A DNA stretch of 64,000 nucleotides from the NCBI RefSeq assembly GCF_947503705.1, contig NZ_CANNES010000004.1, forward strand, positions 188,001 to 252,000. Reading direction: 5' to 3'. The position numbers were made by a program, and so were the translations under genes. The stretch is from an uncultured Tateyamaria sp. Lineage in GTDB: Bacteria > Pseudomonadota > Alphaproteobacteria > Rhodobacterales > Rhodobacteraceae. Positions 39,587 to 46,292 of this stretch are shown here, one piece after another; the stretch's first letter is position 1; each line of letters begins with the position of its first letter. The notes under the pieces are model-generated. The model worked only from the letters and a program-made list of their open reading frames with translations, searched no databases and had not been told where the DNA came from.

Positions 39587-40606
39587 ATGGCCGACACGTC
39601 CAAATCACAGTCACGACCGACCCCGCTGGGCATCTATGACAAACCGCAAGCACGCGGTGTCACGGGGATCGAAGCGGTGGCCATCGCGCTCTCGGCGCTT
39701 TGGCTGCTCGGTTCGGCCGCGTTTTTCATGCTGGGCACTGATAACCCGACCAGCAGCGTCGATGGGCTGCAATTTCTCGTCACGATGCTTGCCGTTTTCA
39801 TGCCCGTCGCCATGATCTGGGTCGCGGCGACGGCCGCCCGGTCCAGCCGGGTGATGCGCGAAGAAAGCCAACGGCTGCAGGCCGCCATAGACGCCATCCG
39901 GCAGGCCTATATCGCGCAGCAACAGGGCCGCGACCTGTCGTCCGAACCCTCCGTGTCGCGCAAGCTGGACGAGATTGCCGCCGCCGCCCGCAACACCGAA
40001 ACGGCCCTCGCCACCTTCCAAAGCAGCCGCCGCGAAAGCGACGCACCAAAGCGGGCCCCAACGCCCGAACCCGCGCCACAGCCCGACGACCAGCCGGCTC
40101 TCGCCCTCGGCACCACCGCCGAAGATATCGCGCCGCCTCTGGCCACGACCGACTTTATCCGCGCACTCAATTTCCCCGAAACCGCCGAAGACGAGGCAGG
40201 CTTTGCCGCCCTGCGCAAGGCGATGAAAGACCGCGACACCGCCCAACTGATCCAGGCGGCCCAGGATATCCTGACACTGCTCAGCCAGGACGGCATCTAT
40301 ATGGACGACCTGCGCCCCGACCGCGCCCGCCCCGAGATTTGGCGCCAATTTGCCAGCGGCGCACGTGGACGTGCGGTGGCCCCTTTGGGCGGGGTGCGCG
40401 ACCGCTCGTCCCTGGCCCTGACCGCAGGCCGGATGAAGCAAGACCCGATCTTCCGCGACGCGGCACACCACTTCTTGCGCCGGTTCGACAAGGCGATCTC
40501 CGCCTTTGCCGAAACCGCCTCTGACGCTGAACTGTCAGAGCTCAGCGACACGCGTACCGCCCGCGCCTTCATGCTGCTGGGCCGGGTTGCAGGCACCTTC
40601 GATTGA
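39587..40606 (+). CDS. Two-helix membrane protein, unknown
   Basis: A 339-residue protein with two membrane helices near the N-terminus (about residues 27-49 and 62-85), a helical stretch (about 88-150), a Pro-rich linker (about 155-175, PTPEPAPQPDDQPALALG) and a C-terminal helical domain (about 185-339, with ALNFPETAEDEAGFAALRKA and RFDKAISAFAE). I do not recognise a named family. It begins 4 bases after greA and its stop overlaps the RidA gene, suggesting one transcript. Confidence 0.75.
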   Translation: MADTSKSQSRPTPLGIYDKPQARGVTGIEAVAIALSALWLLGSAAFFMLGTDNPTSSVDGLQFLVTMLAVFMPVAMIWVAATAARSSRVMREESQRLQAAIDAIRQAYIAQQQGRDLSSEPSVSRKLDEIAAAARNTETALATFQSSRRESDAPKRAPTPEPAPQPDDQPALALGTTAEDIAPPLATTDFIRALNFPETAEDEAGFAALRKAMKDRDTAQLIQAAQDILTLLSQDGIYMDDLRPDRARPEIWRQFASGARGRAVAPLGGVRDRSSLALTAGRMKQDPIFRDAAHHFLRRFDKAISAFAETASDAELSELSDTRTARAFMLLGRVAGTFD

Positions 40607-40965: not shown

Positions 40966-43041
40966 CTAAAGCCCAAAGCCACCCCAAGGGATATAGCGGA
41001 CAGGATCGCCCGGGCGCACATGCAGCGCGCCATCGGGCAGTTCGACCAAACCATCGGCCCAGGCCAGTCCGCTGATCCGCCCCGACCCTTCCGAGGCAAA
41101 AACCTCAACCCGGCCGTCTCGAACCCGCGCCCTCAAATACTCGCGCCGCCCCGGTTTCTTGCGCTTCTCGAATGCGGCCGGCAGGTCGAATCCCTGCGGC
41201 TCCGCCCAATCCGCCCCGGCCATCTGCGCCAGCGCTGGCGCGCCAAAGACCAGGGTACAGACCATGGCCGCCACCGGATTGCCCGGCAGGCCAAATACCG
41301 GCGTGCCGTTCCACATGCCCAGGGCCAGCGGGCGGCCCGGCTTGATCGCAATGCGCCACAACGCCATCGCCCCCGCCTCATTCAGCAACGCCGACACATG
41401 GTCCTCGTCGCCGGCCGAGGCCCCGCCGCTGGTCAGGATCACATCCGCCTGCCCGGCAGCCATGTCCAGACGGCCCCGCAGGGCCGTACGATCATCCGCC
41501 ACCTGACCAAGGTCCACAGGCACATGGCCCAGCTTGCGGATCAGCCCCATCAACATGGGCCGGTTCGCATCAAAAATCTGACCAGCCGCCGCCGCCTGCC
41601 CCGCCTCGACCAACTCATCGCCGGTCGACAAAACGCCCACACGCAGCGGCGCATAGGTCTTCACATCTGGAACGCCCACAGCCGACAGGATCGCCAGATC
41701 GGCGGCGGTCAACCGTCGCCCGCGCGCGGCCACGACGTCGCCCGTCATCACATCTTCGCCCGCCTTGCGCGTGTTGGCCCCCGCCTTGATTGGGCCGTTG
41801 AACTGCACGGCACCGTCCAGCACTTCCACATCCTCTTGCAAGATCACGGTGTCCACGCCCTCGGGAAGGGCCGCGCCCGTCAGAATGCGCACCGCCGAAC
41901 CGGCTGGCACTGCCATATCCAACCTCAAACCAGCCGCCGCTTGCGCCGCCACCAAAGGCAACCGGTGCGGCCCCGCGCTGCGGCCCCCGGCAAACCCATA
42001 GCCGTCCACCGCTGTATTGGGCAGCGGCGGGTTCGACCGCGCCGCGCGCACATCGGCTGCCAAGACGCGGTCCAGGGCCTGCGCAACCGGCAAGGTCTCT
42101 ATCGCCACAACAGGTGTCAACCGCGCCTGCAAATCGGCCAACGCGTCATCCACCGGCGTCCAGTTCACACCCGGCGGCAAGGCAAAACAGTCATTGCGCA
42201 GCGGCGTCGCGTCCCCGCGCAATTCGGCCTCATGGCCCAGACCGAAAATCCAGCCCTCCGGGTTCGCAGGCACATCCAGCATCTGCGCCAGCCGCGCAGG
42301 GGCCAGCGCTGCAAATTGCCGGGCCAAATCGTGGACCTGCCATTGATCCTTGATCCATCCCTCGGCTGCGGGGCCCACTGTCAGCGACGGCCAGACCTCG
42401 ACCAAAGCAATCGGCGCGTCTAGTGGCTCAAAGGGCCATACGGATACGTCGGGTGCAAAATGGCGGCGCAGCCGCGCCAGTACGGGCAGGCCCATCATCG
42501 CCTGACCACCCACCGACCCCACACCCGACATCTGCCAGAGGGTAAAGGCACCCGTGGCCCGCGCCTCGGCCTCACGTCGCGCGGCAAAGGGGCTGTTATA
42601 CCCCACCTTGGTCCGGGGCAGGCCCGCAATGTCGCGCTTGAGCGCGTTGCCCCAAAACGGACCTTTGCCGCCAAAACGCTGGTTGATCTCGCCCGCCAGA
42701 TCAAAGCGATTGTTGGCGCGGGGCTCATCCTCGACCCGCGCCTCAAACCAGTCCCAGAGCGCAAAAGGATCATCCGACCCGGTCAAAGCCGCACCAAATC
42801 CCGCAGGGTAACCAAAGGGGAAGTCAAAGCCTAACAGCACCCGTCGCCCGGCGGCACGTTCGGCTCTTATAACATCCATCAGCCAAGCCTCGGCCAACTG
42901 GCGATTGCGCAGATACACCGCGTCTTCGACAACACCGCAACGCGCGATACAGGCCCAGATCGCATCGGCCTGCGGCTTGGCCGCCCCCTGATTGCCCCCC
43001 GACCAATCCACCATGACAAAAGTGTCAAAATGCGCGGTCAC
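40966..43041 (-). CDS. moeA: MoeA molybdopterin molybdotransferase with N-terminal extra domain
   Basis: A 691-residue fusion. Residues about 295-691 are a complete MoeA, which inserts molybdate into adenylylated molybdopterin: NPPLPNTAVDGYGFAGG, STGDELVEAG, LTSGGASAGDEDHV, GLPGNPVAAMV and a C-terminal domain IV. Residues about 1-290 are an extra domain (FVMVDWSGG, LLGFDFPFGYPAGF, INQRFGGKGPFWGNALK) with an RNase H/DUF429-like look (Asp-bearing VDWSGG and GFDFPFG strands). I cannot assign it. The start is GTG overlapping the mobB stop (GTGA), so it is translated from the same mRNA. There is no stop or internal start that would split it. Confidence 0.9.
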   Translation of the reverse strand: MTAHFDTFVMVDWSGGNQGAAKPQADAIWACIARCGVVEDAVYLRNRQLAEAWLMDVIRAERAAGRRVLLGFDFPFGYPAGFGAALTGSDDPFALWDWFEARVEDEPRANNRFDLAGEINQRFGGKGPFWGNALKRDIAGLPRTKVGYNSPFAARREAEARATGAFTLWQMSGVGSVGGQAMMGLPVLARLRRHFAPDVSVWPFEPLDAPIALVEVWPSLTVGPAAEGWIKDQWQVHDLARQFAALAPARLAQMLDVPANPEGWIFGLGHEAELRGDATPLRNDCFALPPGVNWTPVDDALADLQARLTPVVAIETLPVAQALDRVLAADVRAARSNPPLPNTAVDGYGFAGGRSAGPHRLPLVAAQAAAGLRLDMAVPAGSAVRILTGAALPEGVDTVILQEDVEVLDGAVQFNGPIKAGANTRKAGEDVMTGDVVAARGRRLTAADLAILSAVGVPDVKTYAPLRVGVLSTGDELVEAGQAAAAGQIFDANRPMLMGLIRKLGHVPVDLGQVADDRTALRGRLDMAAGQADVILTSGGASAGDEDHVSALLNEAGAMALWRIAIKPGRPLALGMWNGTPVFGLPGNPVAAMVCTLVFGAPALAQMAGADWAEPQGFDLPAAFEKRKKPGRREYLRARVRDGRVEVFASEGSGRISGLAWADGLVELPDGALHVRPGDPVRYIPWGGFGL

Positions 43042-43529
43042 AGCCCCACCTCGGCCAGGATGAAATCAGCAATAGCGGTAGTGTCATCAAGGTCAAAGAC
43101 GGTCCGATCCAGCGTCAAAGCCGTGTCGCTGGCCACTGCCCGCACGGTCGGATCATCCGGCGCAATCAACGGGTTGCCGGTCACGGCCCGGTGGGCCTCG
43201 ACCTTGGGATGGGCATCGCGCTTGTACCCCTCGATCAGAACCAGATCGACGGGGGCCAGCTTGGTCAGTAATTGGGCAAGGCTTGGCTCGTCCTCCTCGC
43301 GCAGCTCATGCATCAGGGCAAAACGGTTGCGCGAGGCCAACAGCACCTCGGTCGCGCCCGCAACGCGATGGCGATAGCTGTCCTTTCCGGGGTGGTCCAC
43401 GTCAAAGCGGTGGTGGGCATGTTTCACGGTCGACACCGAAATGCCGCGCCCCGTGATCTCGGTCACCAAACGCTCCATCAGCCCGGTCTTGCCAGCGTTC
43501 TTCCACCCTACGATACCGTATAGTTTCAT
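43038..43529 (-). CDS. mobB: Molybdopterin-guanine dinucleotide biosynthesis protein B
   Basis: A 163-residue P-loop protein that assists MobA in attaching GMP to molybdopterin. The Walker A is GWKNAGKT (residues 8-15); TVKHAHHRFDVDHPGKDSYR and DLVLIEGYKRDAHPK are characteristic. It overlaps mobA and moeA by 4 bases each. Confidence 0.95.
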   Translation of the reverse strand: MKLYGIVGWKNAGKTGLMERLVTEITGRGISVSTVKHAHHRFDVDHPGKDSYRHRVAGATEVLLASRNRFALMHELREEDEPSLAQLLTKLAPVDLVLIEGYKRDAHPKVEAHRAVTGNPLIAPDDPTVRAVASDTALTLDRTVFDLDDTTAIADFILAEVGL

Positions 43530-44128
43530 TGCATCGCCTCTGCCCGCGCCAGATCATCGGGCGTGTTTACGTTGAAAAAGGCGGCCTCGTCCGGGAACAT
43601 CGCCAATCGTCCATCATGACGGTCGGTCCACATCACCACCTTGCGGACACCATCCGCCAAGGCCGCGCGCAAATCCTCACGCAGGGCGACGGGCCAGAGG
43701 CCGAATGTCGGATGGCGGGCCTTGCCACGTTCAGGGTCGGGGGTCGCGGCCAAGGCCAAAGGATGCGCCATCCCTTCGGCAGCCAATTGCAGGCGCGGCA
43801 CCAGATCGCAGGGGAAAAACGGCGTGTCGGCGGCGGCGGTCACAATCGTCTCCGCCCCCTGCGCCGCCGCCCAGTCCAGGCCCGCCAGCACTCCAGCCAA
43901 AGGCCCGGCAAAGCCCTCAATACTATCGGAAATCACAGGCAGGCCAAGACCCGCAAAACGGGCAGGATCGCCATTGGCATTCAGCGCCATGTCCGCCACC
44001 TGCGGGCGCAACCGATCCATCACATGGCCCAACAGAGTCGTATCGCCCAGTGTCAACAAGCCCTTGTCACCACCGCCCATGCGCGTGGCCTGACCGCCCG
44101 CCAGAATGACACCCACCGGGGGCCTCAT
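43526..44128 (-). CDS. mobA: Molybdenum cofactor guanylyltransferase
   Basis: A 200-residue nucleotidyltransferase producing the bis-MGD cofactor used by formate dehydrogenase and DMSO reductase-family enzymes. The GTP-binding start is VILAGGQATRMGGGDKGLL; VISDSIEGFAGPLAGVLAGL and TAAADTPFFPCDL (metal-binding Asp) follow, and NVNTPDDLARAE is the typical end. I chose the ATG at 44126-44128, which overlaps the preceding stop (ATGA) and has GGGGGA upstream, over the ATG at 44146. Confidence 0.95.
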   Translation of the reverse strand: MRPPVGVILAGGQATRMGGGDKGLLTLGDTTLLGHVMDRLRPQVADMALNANGDPARFAGLGLPVISDSIEGFAGPLAGVLAGLDWAAAQGAETIVTAAADTPFFPCDLVPRLQLAAEGMAHPLALAATPDPERGKARHPTFGLWPVALREDLRAALADGVRKVVMWTDRHDGRLAMFPDEAAFFNVNTPDDLARAEAMQ

Positions 44129-44646
44129 GCGCCGGTCCCCCGCCATGCCGCCACCTGGTCCAGAACCGGCGCAGCACCGTCATGCAACGCATGTACCGGC
44201 AACACAAAGCCTTGGACACCCACGATAAAAACGATCAATCCCTTGTCATGCGCCACCGCATCCACCGCCTCCCAGGGAATATCAACCTTGATCCCCCACA
44301 CCTCATGGTGCACCCCACCCGGCGACAGACGTACCCGTATGGGTACATCAACCATCCGTGCCATCGCCATGCGCGTATCAGGTCGCGTGACGGCCCGGGT
44401 GAACAGCATCATGCCAAAGCCGACGGCCAGCACGATCATCAGGCCAATCCAGCCGGTCGTGTCCGTGATCAACGACAAAACATAGAGCACACCGCCCCCT
44501 AGGGCGGCATAGGCCAACCCTTGGAGCACGCTGTGCACTTGCGCACCCACATGCCAAAGCGGTGGGAATACCTGTCGCCAGATCATGCGGCCCGCCAGCC
44601 TCACCTCCGCCGGGGACAGCGTGAATTGCGCCGCGACATCGCTCAC
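44125..44646 (-). CDS. Small membrane protein between fdhD and mobA
   Basis: A 173-residue protein with two hydrophobic helices (about residues 41-60 and 64-83) and a C-terminal soluble part whose end (IPWEAVDAVAHDKGLIVFIV, VLPVHALHDG) resembles YcxB-like domains. GTG start overlapping the fdhD stop (GTGA), and ATGA overlap with mobA, place it inside the Mo-cofactor operon. No direct link to molybdenum chemistry can be seen in the sequence. Confidence 0.75.
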   Translation of the reverse strand: MSDVAAQFTLSPAEVRLAGRMIWRQVFPPLWHVGAQVHSVLQGLAYAALGGGVLYVLSLITDTTGWIGLMIVLAVGFGMMLFTRAVTRPDTRMAMARMVDVPIRVRLSPGGVHHEVWGIKVDIPWEAVDAVAHDKGLIVFIVGVQGFVLPVHALHDGAAPVLDQVAAWRGTGA

Positions 44647-45533
44647 GTCTTGGCACCCTTGCGCCCGGATTTGCGCGGCTCATCCGCCACCGCGGCCGGG
44701 TCCGCATCGCGCACCAATCGGTCCTCGCCGCTCAGGCAGACAAAACGCTGCCCTCGCATCCGGCCAATCAGTGTCAGGCCCACCTGCTGCGCAATCTCGA
44801 CACCCCAGGCGGTAAAGCCCGAGCGCGAAGCCAGCACCGGAATACCCATCATCGCCGTCTTGATCACCATCTCAGAGGTCAGGCGACCCGTGGTATAAAG
44901 AATCTTGTCCTCAGCCCCGACACCCTCTGCCATCATCCAACCGGCAATCTTGTCGACCGCATTGTGACGGCCCACATCCTCCATATAGACCAAAGGGCGG
45001 TCGCCCTGACACAGCACCGTGCCATGAATCGCCCCCGCCTCGAGGTAGAGCGATGGGGTTCGATTGATCCGCGCCGACAAGGCATAGAGCCACGAAGTGC
45101 GCACAGAGACAGCAGGCAGGTTCACCCCCTCCAACCCCTCCATCATGTCGCCGAACACGGTGCCCACGGCACAGCCGCTGGTGCGCGTTTTCTTCTTCAG
45201 CTTTTCCTCGTGATCTGTCGCCACGGCCGTGCGCACAATCACCGTCTCCAACTCTTCGTCATAATCGATGCCGGTGACGACATCCTCCGCCTTCAACATC
45301 CCTTGATTGCGCAAAAAGCCCAAGGCCAGATAGTCGGGATAATCGCCAATAGTCATCGCCGTGACGATTTCCTGACTGTTGAGAAAGATGGTCAGGGGCC
45401 GCTCCTCAACCACGGACGTGACGACCTCGGCCCCCGTCTGATCATGGCCCACAACGCTCCGGGTCAGGCGCGGCGCATTCGGGTCAGGCGCAATCACATA
45501 GCCCGCAACATCCTCATTTTGCGCCAATTGCAT
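44643..45533 (-). CDS. fdhD: Formate dehydrogenase sulfurtransferase accessory protein FdhD
   Basis: A 296-residue protein that carries sulfur from the cysteine desulfurase to the Mo-bisPGD cofactor of formate dehydrogenase. VVEERPLTIFLNSQEIVTAM, DYLALGFLRNQGML, EDVGRHNAVDKIAGWMM, TTGRLTSEMVIKTAMMGIPV and SRSGFTAWGVEIAQQVGLTL are all FdhD hallmarks. In the usual CxxC loop only the first cysteine is kept (C121 in TSGCAVGTVFG; the second is G124). The start ATG (45531-45533) follows a G-rich site. It is the first gene of fdhD-mobA-mobB-moeA; formate dehydrogenase genes are not in the window. Confidence 0.95.
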   Translation of the reverse strand: MQLAQNEDVAGYVIAPDPNAPRLTRSVVGHDQTGAEVVTSVVEERPLTIFLNSQEIVTAMTIGDYPDYLALGFLRNQGMLKAEDVVTGIDYDEELETVIVRTAVATDHEEKLKKKTRTSGCAVGTVFGDMMEGLEGVNLPAVSVRTSWLYALSARINRTPSLYLEAGAIHGTVLCQGDRPLVYMEDVGRHNAVDKIAGWMMAEGVGAEDKILYTTGRLTSEMVIKTAMMGIPVLASRSGFTAWGVEIAQQVGLTLIGRMRGQRFVCLSGEDRLVRDADPAAVADEPRKSGRKGAKT

Positions 45534-45581
45534 CCCCCCCGACGGACAGCTAATCCTTGGCCACCAATCTAAGGAACCTCC

Positions 45582-46292
45582 ATGCCCATCACCACCCCAA
45601 AATCCGCCTATATGGCGGGGCTGCGCGACGGCGCACCCTTCATGCTGGTGGCAGGCCCCTTTGCCCTGCTCTTTGGCGTGCTGGCGACCGAGGCGGGGTT
45701 GAGCGTGTTTGAGGTGATGAGCTTTTCGCTGGTGGTGATCGCGGGGGCGGCCCAGTTCACCGCACTGCAACTGATGCAAGACGAGGCACCCACGATCATC
45801 GTCCTGATCTCGGCGCTGGCGGTGAACCTGCGGGTGGCAATGTATTCGGCGGCGCTCACGCCCTATCTTGGGCGCGCGCCGCTCTGGCAACGGGCCTGTG
45901 CCGCCTACTTGCTGGTCGACCAAAGCTATGCACTCAGCCACGGCAAGTTCGAGGCAGAACCAAAGCTGAGCGTGCCTCAACGCATGGCCTATTATTTCGG
46001 AACCTGCACACTGGTCATGATCACATGGTTCGGATGCAGCTATCTGGGCGCCGCGCTCGGCACGGCGCTGCCGCAAAACCTACCGCTCGATTTCGCGCTG
46101 CCGATTGCGTTTTTGTCGATGGTGGCCCCGATGATGCGCACGGTGCCGCACCTGATCGCCGCCGCTGTGGCGCTTGTGATAAGCCTTGTCGCGGTCAACA
46201 TCCCGTACTCGCTGGGGCTGATCGTGGCCGGACTTGCGGGGATGATGGCGGGCGCGCAGGCCGAACTTTGGCTCAAGGGGCGCGACACATGA
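45582..46292 (+). CDS. azlC: AzlC family branched-chain amino acid exporter subunit
   Basis: A 236-residue membrane protein matching AzlC, the large subunit of the AzlCD exporter. DGAPFMLVAGPFALLFGVLA, VVIAGAAQFTALQLM, NLRVAMYSAALTPYL and DQSYALSHGKF are characteristic. The ATG at 45582 has AAGGAACC upstream. It is coupled to azlD. Confidence 0.93.
   Translation: MPITTPKSAYMAGLRDGAPFMLVAGPFALLFGVLATEAGLSVFEVMSFSLVVIAGAAQFTALQLMQDEAPTIIVLISALAVNLRVAMYSAALTPYLGRAPLWQRACAAYLLVDQSYALSHGKFEAEPKLSVPQRMAYYFGTCTLVMITWFGCSYLGAALGTALPQNLPLDFALPIAFLSMVAPMMRTVPHLIAAAVALVISLVAVNIPYSLGLIVAGLAGMMAGAQAELWLKGRDT

Follow-up and report, generated by a model that had tools for sequence, protein, structure and literature searches.

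The window analyzed here is a stretch of 64,000 nucleotides from an uncultured Tateyamaria sp., within which fdhD, a 173-aa gene, mobA, mobB, and a gene joining an N-terminal domain to moeA all run in the same direction (Table 1). A reading of this DNA from its sequence alone had described the last of these as a single gene of 691 codons, starting with GTG and coupled to mobB. The description is borne out, as the frame is uninterrupted and shares 4 nt with mobB, which in turn overlaps mobA by 4 nt. The in-frame ATGs closest to the junction of domain and MoeA are codons 254 and 376, so a separately started MoeA would require GTG or TTG. An Rfam search of positions 30000-55000 gave no element at gathering score, and a riboswitch link is rejected on this ground. 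On the plus strand, at 39587-40606, a 339-aa gene without a Pfam match adjoins greA, as it does, judged by eye, in several relatives.

Table 1. Coordinates of the fused gene, its parts and residues, and the neighboring genes in the window
Feature	Position	Strand	Observation
fdhD	44643..46076	minus	Pfam FdhD-NarQ, 248 bits; listed ORF begins well ahead of the domain
173-aa gene between mobA and fdhD	44125..44646	minus	No Pfam match at E<=1e-5
mobA (molybdenum cofactor guanylyltransferase)	43526..44146	minus	TIGR02665, 202 bits (cut-off 151.85)
mobB	43038..43529	minus	Pfam MobB, 165 bits; upstream of the fused gene and overlapping it
Fused gene (domain::moeA)	40966..43041	minus	691 aa, GTG start, one uninterrupted frame
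N-terminal RNase H/RuvC-like domain, residues 1-290 (folded part ~1-275)	42172..43041	minus	AF2 model, structural matches, NF011066
Flexible linker, residues 277-291	42169..42213	minus	pLDDT <50 in full-length model
MoeA part, residues 291-691	40969..42171	minus	Three Pfam MoeA domains; alignment to E. coli MoeA 1fc5
Asp12, end of strand 1, putative metal ligand	43006..43008	minus	105/105 relatives
Asp73, just after strand 4, putative metal ligand	42823..42825	minus	105/105 relatives
Glu215, end of strand 5, putative metal ligand	42397..42399	minus	105/105 relatives
Asp232, start of C-terminal helix, putative metal ligand	42346..42348	minus	105/105 relatives
Arg570, MoeA pocket	41332..41334	minus	R291 of Methylorubrum MoeA1, K297 of Cnx1E
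Ala591, MoeA pocket	41269..41271	minus	A312 of Methylorubrum MoeA1, S303 of E. coli MoeA

The C-terminal end of the protein is a full MoeA, as had been claimed. Three Pfam domains span residues 296-686 and exceed their cut-offs (MoeA_N, 296-456, 120 bits; MoCF_biosynth, 469-605, 102 bits; MoeA_C, 621-686, 54 bits), and the alignment to E. coli MoeA has an E value of 8.9e-74. The NCBIfam equivalog cut-offs are missed by the fused MoeA (PRK10680, 362 bits against 440; PRK14491, 419 bits against 532), and the genome's other MoeA, whose gene adjoins lexA (named by NCBIfam) with moaC and trp genes nearby by eye, likewise falls under the PRK10680 cut-off, at 310 bits. Pocket motifs read IKPGRP and PGNPVA in the fused MoeA and MRPGKP and PGNPVS in the other, with Arg and Ala in the fused protein at the positions of Lys and Ser in both E. 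coli MoeA and Cnx1E. The Arg/Ala pocket is present in 65 of 67 MoeA frames of mob operons, the other two being incomplete and duplicate fetches of one genome being counted; three other MoeA proteins, read from genomes G000, G030, and G036, have Lys/Ser.

Arg and Ala at both pocket positions are shared with MoeA1 of Methylorubrum extorquens, which is reported to be required together with MobB and FdhD for a tungsten formate dehydrogenase and to form a platform with MobB (PMC13197769). At the fused locus mobB and fdhD lie in the same run, and the words "RNase" and "N-terminal domain" do not occur in the main text of that paper. By its residues, the fused MoeA is an insertase of this MoeA1, or tungsten, type; a preference for tungsten is a prediction from two residues. 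Also encoded in the window's genome is a protein that shares 62% identity with the alpha subunit of a formate dehydrogenase from genome G030; that subunit exceeds the TIGR01591 cut-off, and its gene adjoins the G030 moeA-mobB-mobA-fdhD genes. From the pocket, the fdhD-mobA-mobB run, and this formate dehydrogenase relative, the fused MoeA is best read as a formate dehydrogenase insertase and probably serves that enzyme.

The N-terminal part had been called an unassigned domain, and as far as Pfam is concerned this stands, as residues 1-298 gave no match even at E<=10. It does not stand for NCBIfam, where positions 165-448 of NF011066 (PRK14495) align to residues 3-275 of the domain alone with 213 bits (E 6.6e-63); both the full protein (210 bits) and the domain (213 bits) stay well below the 596 bits required over the model's full length. 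The domain is thus unnamed in Pfam yet previously recorded in NCBIfam, as the C-terminal "unknown domain" of PRK14495. There it is fused to MobB, whereas in the present protein it is fused to MoeA, and MobB is a separate, overlapping gene. A PDB sequence search gave no meaningful match, a BFVD search nothing at E<=0.001, and literature searches on the domain, its fusions, and PRK14495 no paper describing it. Three further Pfam families appeared as stray matches, each in 1 of 34 members (E 0.016 to 0.21). A viral, phage, or defense origin is likewise rejected, with two stray families each from PHROGs and PADLOC, each in 1 of 34 members at E 0.027 or worse.

A likeness to DUF429 (PF04250; COG2410, COG4328, COG4923) had also been suggested, from the motifs VDWSGG and GFDFPFGYP. 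Both are present in the domain, from residues 11 and 71, and by eye the order of motifs is similar to that of DUF429, with Asp in strand 1, a D-P strand, and an E-x-x-P strand. DUF429 itself has been placed in clade D of the RNase H-like superfamily together with RuvC (PMC3985635). As membership, however, the suggestion fails. The fused protein gave no DUF429 match at E<=10, and so no score above 23 bits; none of the 34 family members matched at E<=1; and hhalign against a 13-sequence DUF429 alignment returned a probability of 0.7% (E 0.082). The window's genome has no DUF429 match at E<=0.001. Homology by profile is found with another family, A3 (probability 99.9%, E 2.8e-34), which occupies a different locus, beside genes resembling rarA, degP, and crcB. 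Mob or cob genes were found in none of the 11 A3-type control loci and none of 16 DUF429 loci, which were read with short flanks. A3 members (L105-L115, e.g., L111:7767-9191 minus) carry an IDWSGA motif and an EGWIFG-like end and have no significant Pfam match; in several genomes the genes nearby resemble, by eye, degP, rarA, crcB, and rluC.

Structure prediction gave a confident model. The AlphaFold (AF2) model of residues 1-285, built from an alignment of 34 domains, has a mean pLDDT of 94.1 and a pTM of 0.91. By DSSP, strands 7-12, 28-34, and 42-44, helix 47-63, and strand 68-72 are followed by a long insertion and then by helix 177-194, strand 211-215, and helix 231-245, which is the RNase H-like core topology b1-b2-b3-aA-b4-aB-b5-aC. 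Foldseek searches of the PDB gave a best E of 0.055, with none at E<=0.001, and the best 50 rows include terminase nucleases, YqgF, RNase HI, PPX/GppA, and pantothenate kinase. VIA-align on these chains gave, in the 50 rows listed, almost exclusively RuvC, Cas9/Cas12, Tex, Spt6, YqgF, and terminase domains, at Z scores of 5.6-7.2. Because these lie below the tool's safe level of 8, the fold call rests on topology, consistency of matches, and residues; the AlphaFold prediction of an RNase H/RuvC-like fold is itself a confident one. The core topology is common to RuvC, YqgF, Tex, and Spt6 (Z 5.8-6.8); the domain differs from them in ~95 residues inserted after strand 4, ahead of the next core helix, which include W96, N111, R112, N120, W130, and R156.

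The carboxylate positions of the superfamily, at the end of b1, the end of b4, and the C-terminal helix, are occupied by D12, D73, and D232, with E215 in addition. All four are invariant (Table 1), as are W13, R47, W130, R156, V177, G178, Q180, G184, P203, and E262 in the same 105 relatives. Given this conservation, the domain looks like an active enzyme, as a prediction, and the four carboxylates could be the full set for two-metal catalysis. The AF2 model, VIA-align, and the 105-relative alignment thus support what the sequence-only reading had seen here, a separate domain of RNase H type with conserved Asp-bearing strands. A type III pantothenate kinase, of related fold, is among the weak Foldseek matches, and we dropped the notion of a first RNase H-fold enzyme in cofactor synthesis. 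The full-length fused model has a pTM of 0.55, a low-confidence linker, and no readable interface, which speaks against a rigid unit of domain and MoeA.

The domain family is almost confined to Alphaproteobacteria. It is present in 31 of 61 near genomes, the window's own included, and in 49 of 398 genomes of the phylum, 47 of them from the class; in the class sample, 58 of 289 genomes match at E<=0.001, about half of them weakly and of the A3 kind. Seven of 72,556 plasmid records match it, all from Alphaproteobacteria by name. In Rhodobacteraceae, the domain mostly lies between mobB and moeA, fused or free, so that the free-standing form next to moeA and mob genes, which the sequence-only reading had proposed to look for, does exist. 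Thirty-seven of the 105 distinct relatives in our tree are labeled as MoeA fusions, which, together with the 31 of 61 near genomes that have the domain, rules out a chance reading frame. In the split forms, an ATGA-like or ~13-nt overlap with moeA was seen in the 15 loci read, and one frame shift would therefore fuse or split the two genes.

MobA is within 3 kb of the domain or fused to it in all 58 mob-labeled tree rows, and in 5 of these (one with 1.5-kb flanks only) there is no MoeA within 3 kb. In genome G613 (L153:7404-8849 plus), the domain is fused behind MobA in a 482-aa frame whose MobA part, at 164 bits, passes the cut-off of 152, and in three further genomes mobA ends 9-12 nt ahead of the domain with no mobB or moeA in reach (one with 1.5-kb flanks). 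Mob-moeA operons lacking the domain occur in six genomes (G020, G022, G026, G030, G032, and G033). A domain search of G022 and G032 gave no match at all; G020 and G026 have the domain fused to CobH, and G033 has it elsewhere. In G030 a lone domain gene (L104) lies between an azlC-like gene and greA, and fdhD-mobA-mobB-moeA are on another contig by formate dehydrogenase genes; the azlC-like/greA site is likely an old mob site where the domain stayed behind.

Outside Rhodobacteraceae the neighbors differ. At E<=1e-50 the class sample has 31 domain genomes, comprising 3 Rhodobacteraceae, in all of which the domain is fused to MoeA, G107, which was left out, and 27 others that were examined. In 11 of the 27, drawn from nine families, a B12 gene is fused to the domain or located within 3 kb of it, a situation absent from the A3-type and DUF429 control loci. 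These comprise three genomes with a CbiC/CobH fusion, three in which cobU immediately precedes the domain and one in which cobQ does, three with the order CbiX-domain-CobH, and one with a divergent cobD. CobU, a name taken here from NCBIfam, is the other GTP-using cofactor guanylyltransferase besides MobA. In 4 of the 27 loci, from two families (L100-L103), a divergent subfamily of the domain is head to head with cca, which encodes the CCA tRNA nucleotidyltransferase, and in 12 no Moco, B12, or cca gene was detected within 3 kb, with L073, L080, and L085 among these shortened by contig ends or flanks; a family-wide cofactor role is therefore rejected. The neighbors of one large clade are unrelated genes, among them an exodeoxyribonuclease III gene near some members. 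CbiC is found in 19 of the 31 domain genomes compared with 98 of 289 overall. Six of the 31 lack both MobB and CbiC at E<=0.001, and a strict dependence on genes for B12 or Moco is rejected on this count, although a few of the MobB absences may be overlooked genes, as no more than 13 candidates per genome were scored in that search. Gene calling around the domain was partly home-made, with the domain gene forced, so that small genes may be missed or misplaced, and many neighbors were named by eye; the B12 and cca families of the class sample were checked by Pfam or NCBIfam. A divergent copy in G638 (L165) follows genes for a BtuC/FecCD-type permease and a heme-type ABC ATPase.

Phylogenetic comparison offers a possible history. 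The tree of 105 distinct domains was made by a quick method with SH-aLRT support only and a midpoint root, and it excludes L048 (a broken frame), rows below 150 bits, and identical sequences. The mob-associated rows and the stranded G030 copy form one group of 59 (support 89), within which fusion to MoeA changes five times among the mob-labeled rows, a few of them without MoeA nearby. The CbiC/CobH fusion, found in 7 of the 105 rows, is scattered, with seven label changes of which at least five are forced by starred branches. This suggests that B12 operons are the older place and that a single move brought the domain into the mob operon of Rhodobacteraceae. The simplest reading of what followed the B12 stage is repeated fusion and fission with CobH, the mob move, and then fusion with MoeA or MobA. 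As the root is a midpoint root only, we infer the direction of this history.

What the domain does can be approached through its partners. Fusion to MoeA, MobA, and CbiC/CobH, and to MobB in the NCBIfam model, makes a role in cofactor assembly plausible. The identical residues are kept whatever the partner, so a single chemistry is probably common to all contexts. The MobA fusion, the CbiC/CobH fusions, and the cobU and cobQ neighbors point away from a job specific to MoeA and toward a step common to MGD and B12 assembly. Since MobA, and not MoeA, is the most constant mob neighbor and cobU lies directly upstream in three B12 genomes, a phosphoesterase acting on a nucleotide-bearing compound is favored.

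Our best explanation, offered tentatively, is that the domain is an intact RNase H/RuvC-like two-metal phosphoesterase at the nucleotide stage, resident first in B12 operons and later in the mob operon, and flexibly tethered to a MoeA1-type MoeA. It builds on the fold prediction, the invariant carboxylates, the gene order, the fusions, and the MoeA type by residues; from these we infer the two-metal phosphoesterase role at or beside the nucleotide-attachment stage. The domain would have been transferred from B12 operons to the mobA-mobB-moeA operon of Rhodobacteraceae and there often been joined to a second, MoeA1-type insertase. It may clear or edit a nucleotide-bearing intermediate, a wrong adduct, or a by-product from MobA, or from CobU in the B12 case. 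The tether would hold it on a MobB-MoeA-MobA hand-off platform and not make it a rigid element of MoeA catalysis. A narrower version, which we consider doubtful, has a metal-dependent hydrolase at the guanylylation stage of both W/Mo-bis-MGD (MobA) and cobalamin (CobU), for example stripping misloaded or dead-end nucleotide adducts, carried between the pathways by operon capture and fusion. Counting against the phosphoesterase explanation are the 12 loci without cofactor neighbors, the large clade beside unrelated genes, the six genomes without CbiC and MobB, the domain-free mob-moeA operons, the stranded G030 copy, and the Foldseek and VIA-align scores. To our knowledge, CbiC/CobH uses no nucleotide, which also counts against a nucleotide-stage reading.

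Nearly as likely, though itself no better than possible, is a plain nuclease acting on RNA or DNA, such as the operon mRNA or tRNA, whose place in cofactor operons would reflect shared expression and whose fusions would arise by stop loss between overlapping genes. The fold and the four carboxylates suit such an enzyme, as do the subfamily head to head with cca and the exodeoxyribonuclease III gene near some members of another clade, and with the ATGA and 13-nt overlaps a single change is enough to fuse the genes. That fusions with enzymes from two cofactor pathways arose repeatedly is, however, unlikely by chance, and the lack of an Rfam element in the region searched also argues against this hitch-hiking.

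Less probable again, and in our view unlikely, is that the domain is no longer catalytic and serves as a binding or scaffold module that brings MoeA, MobA, or CobH together with partners or the apo-enzyme. Its place beside or within several different assembly-line enzymes, the flexible tether, and the MoeA1-MobB platform of Methylorubrum would all fit, but a scaffold has no need to keep D12, D73, E215, D232, R47, and R156 in all 105 sequences with differing partners. Control of MoeA itself, through metal choice or adenylate hydrolysis, seems more improbable still. The MoeA fusions, over a third of the tree rows, and the Arg/Ala-type MoeA in every frame complete enough to read are in its favor; against it, six MoeA frames of this type have no domain at the locus, five mob-labeled rows have MobA without MoeA within reach, and the same domain residues are kept beside B12 genes. 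An error of sequencing or assembly joining two overlapping genes, which the split form in the close relative L029 and the broken frames L008 and L048 might bring to mind, is refuted by how widely the fused form occurs, with 36 uninterrupted fused frames of distinct domain sequence (683-720 aa, counted from where the domain match begins).

Taken as a whole, the interpretation given by the sequence-only reading is partly supported, for the separate RNase H-type domain and its free-standing form but not for DUF429 membership; its suggestion that the domain may handle a nucleotide or molybdopterin-adenylate step, or control MoeA, is conjectural. The fused domain is real, conserved, and unnamed in Pfam, with an RNase H-like fold that by profile is not DUF429. 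It represents an accessory domain, a predicted enzyme, common to two cofactor pathways usually handled apart and fused to MoeA, MobA, and CbiC/CobH. If it performs one chemical step in both, the usual schemes of bis-MGD and B12 assembly miss a step. The phosphoesterase reading, if true, would be the first lead to a function for the "unknown domain" of PRK14495 and would bear on the production of tungsten-dependent, CO2-reducing formate dehydrogenases in foreign hosts.
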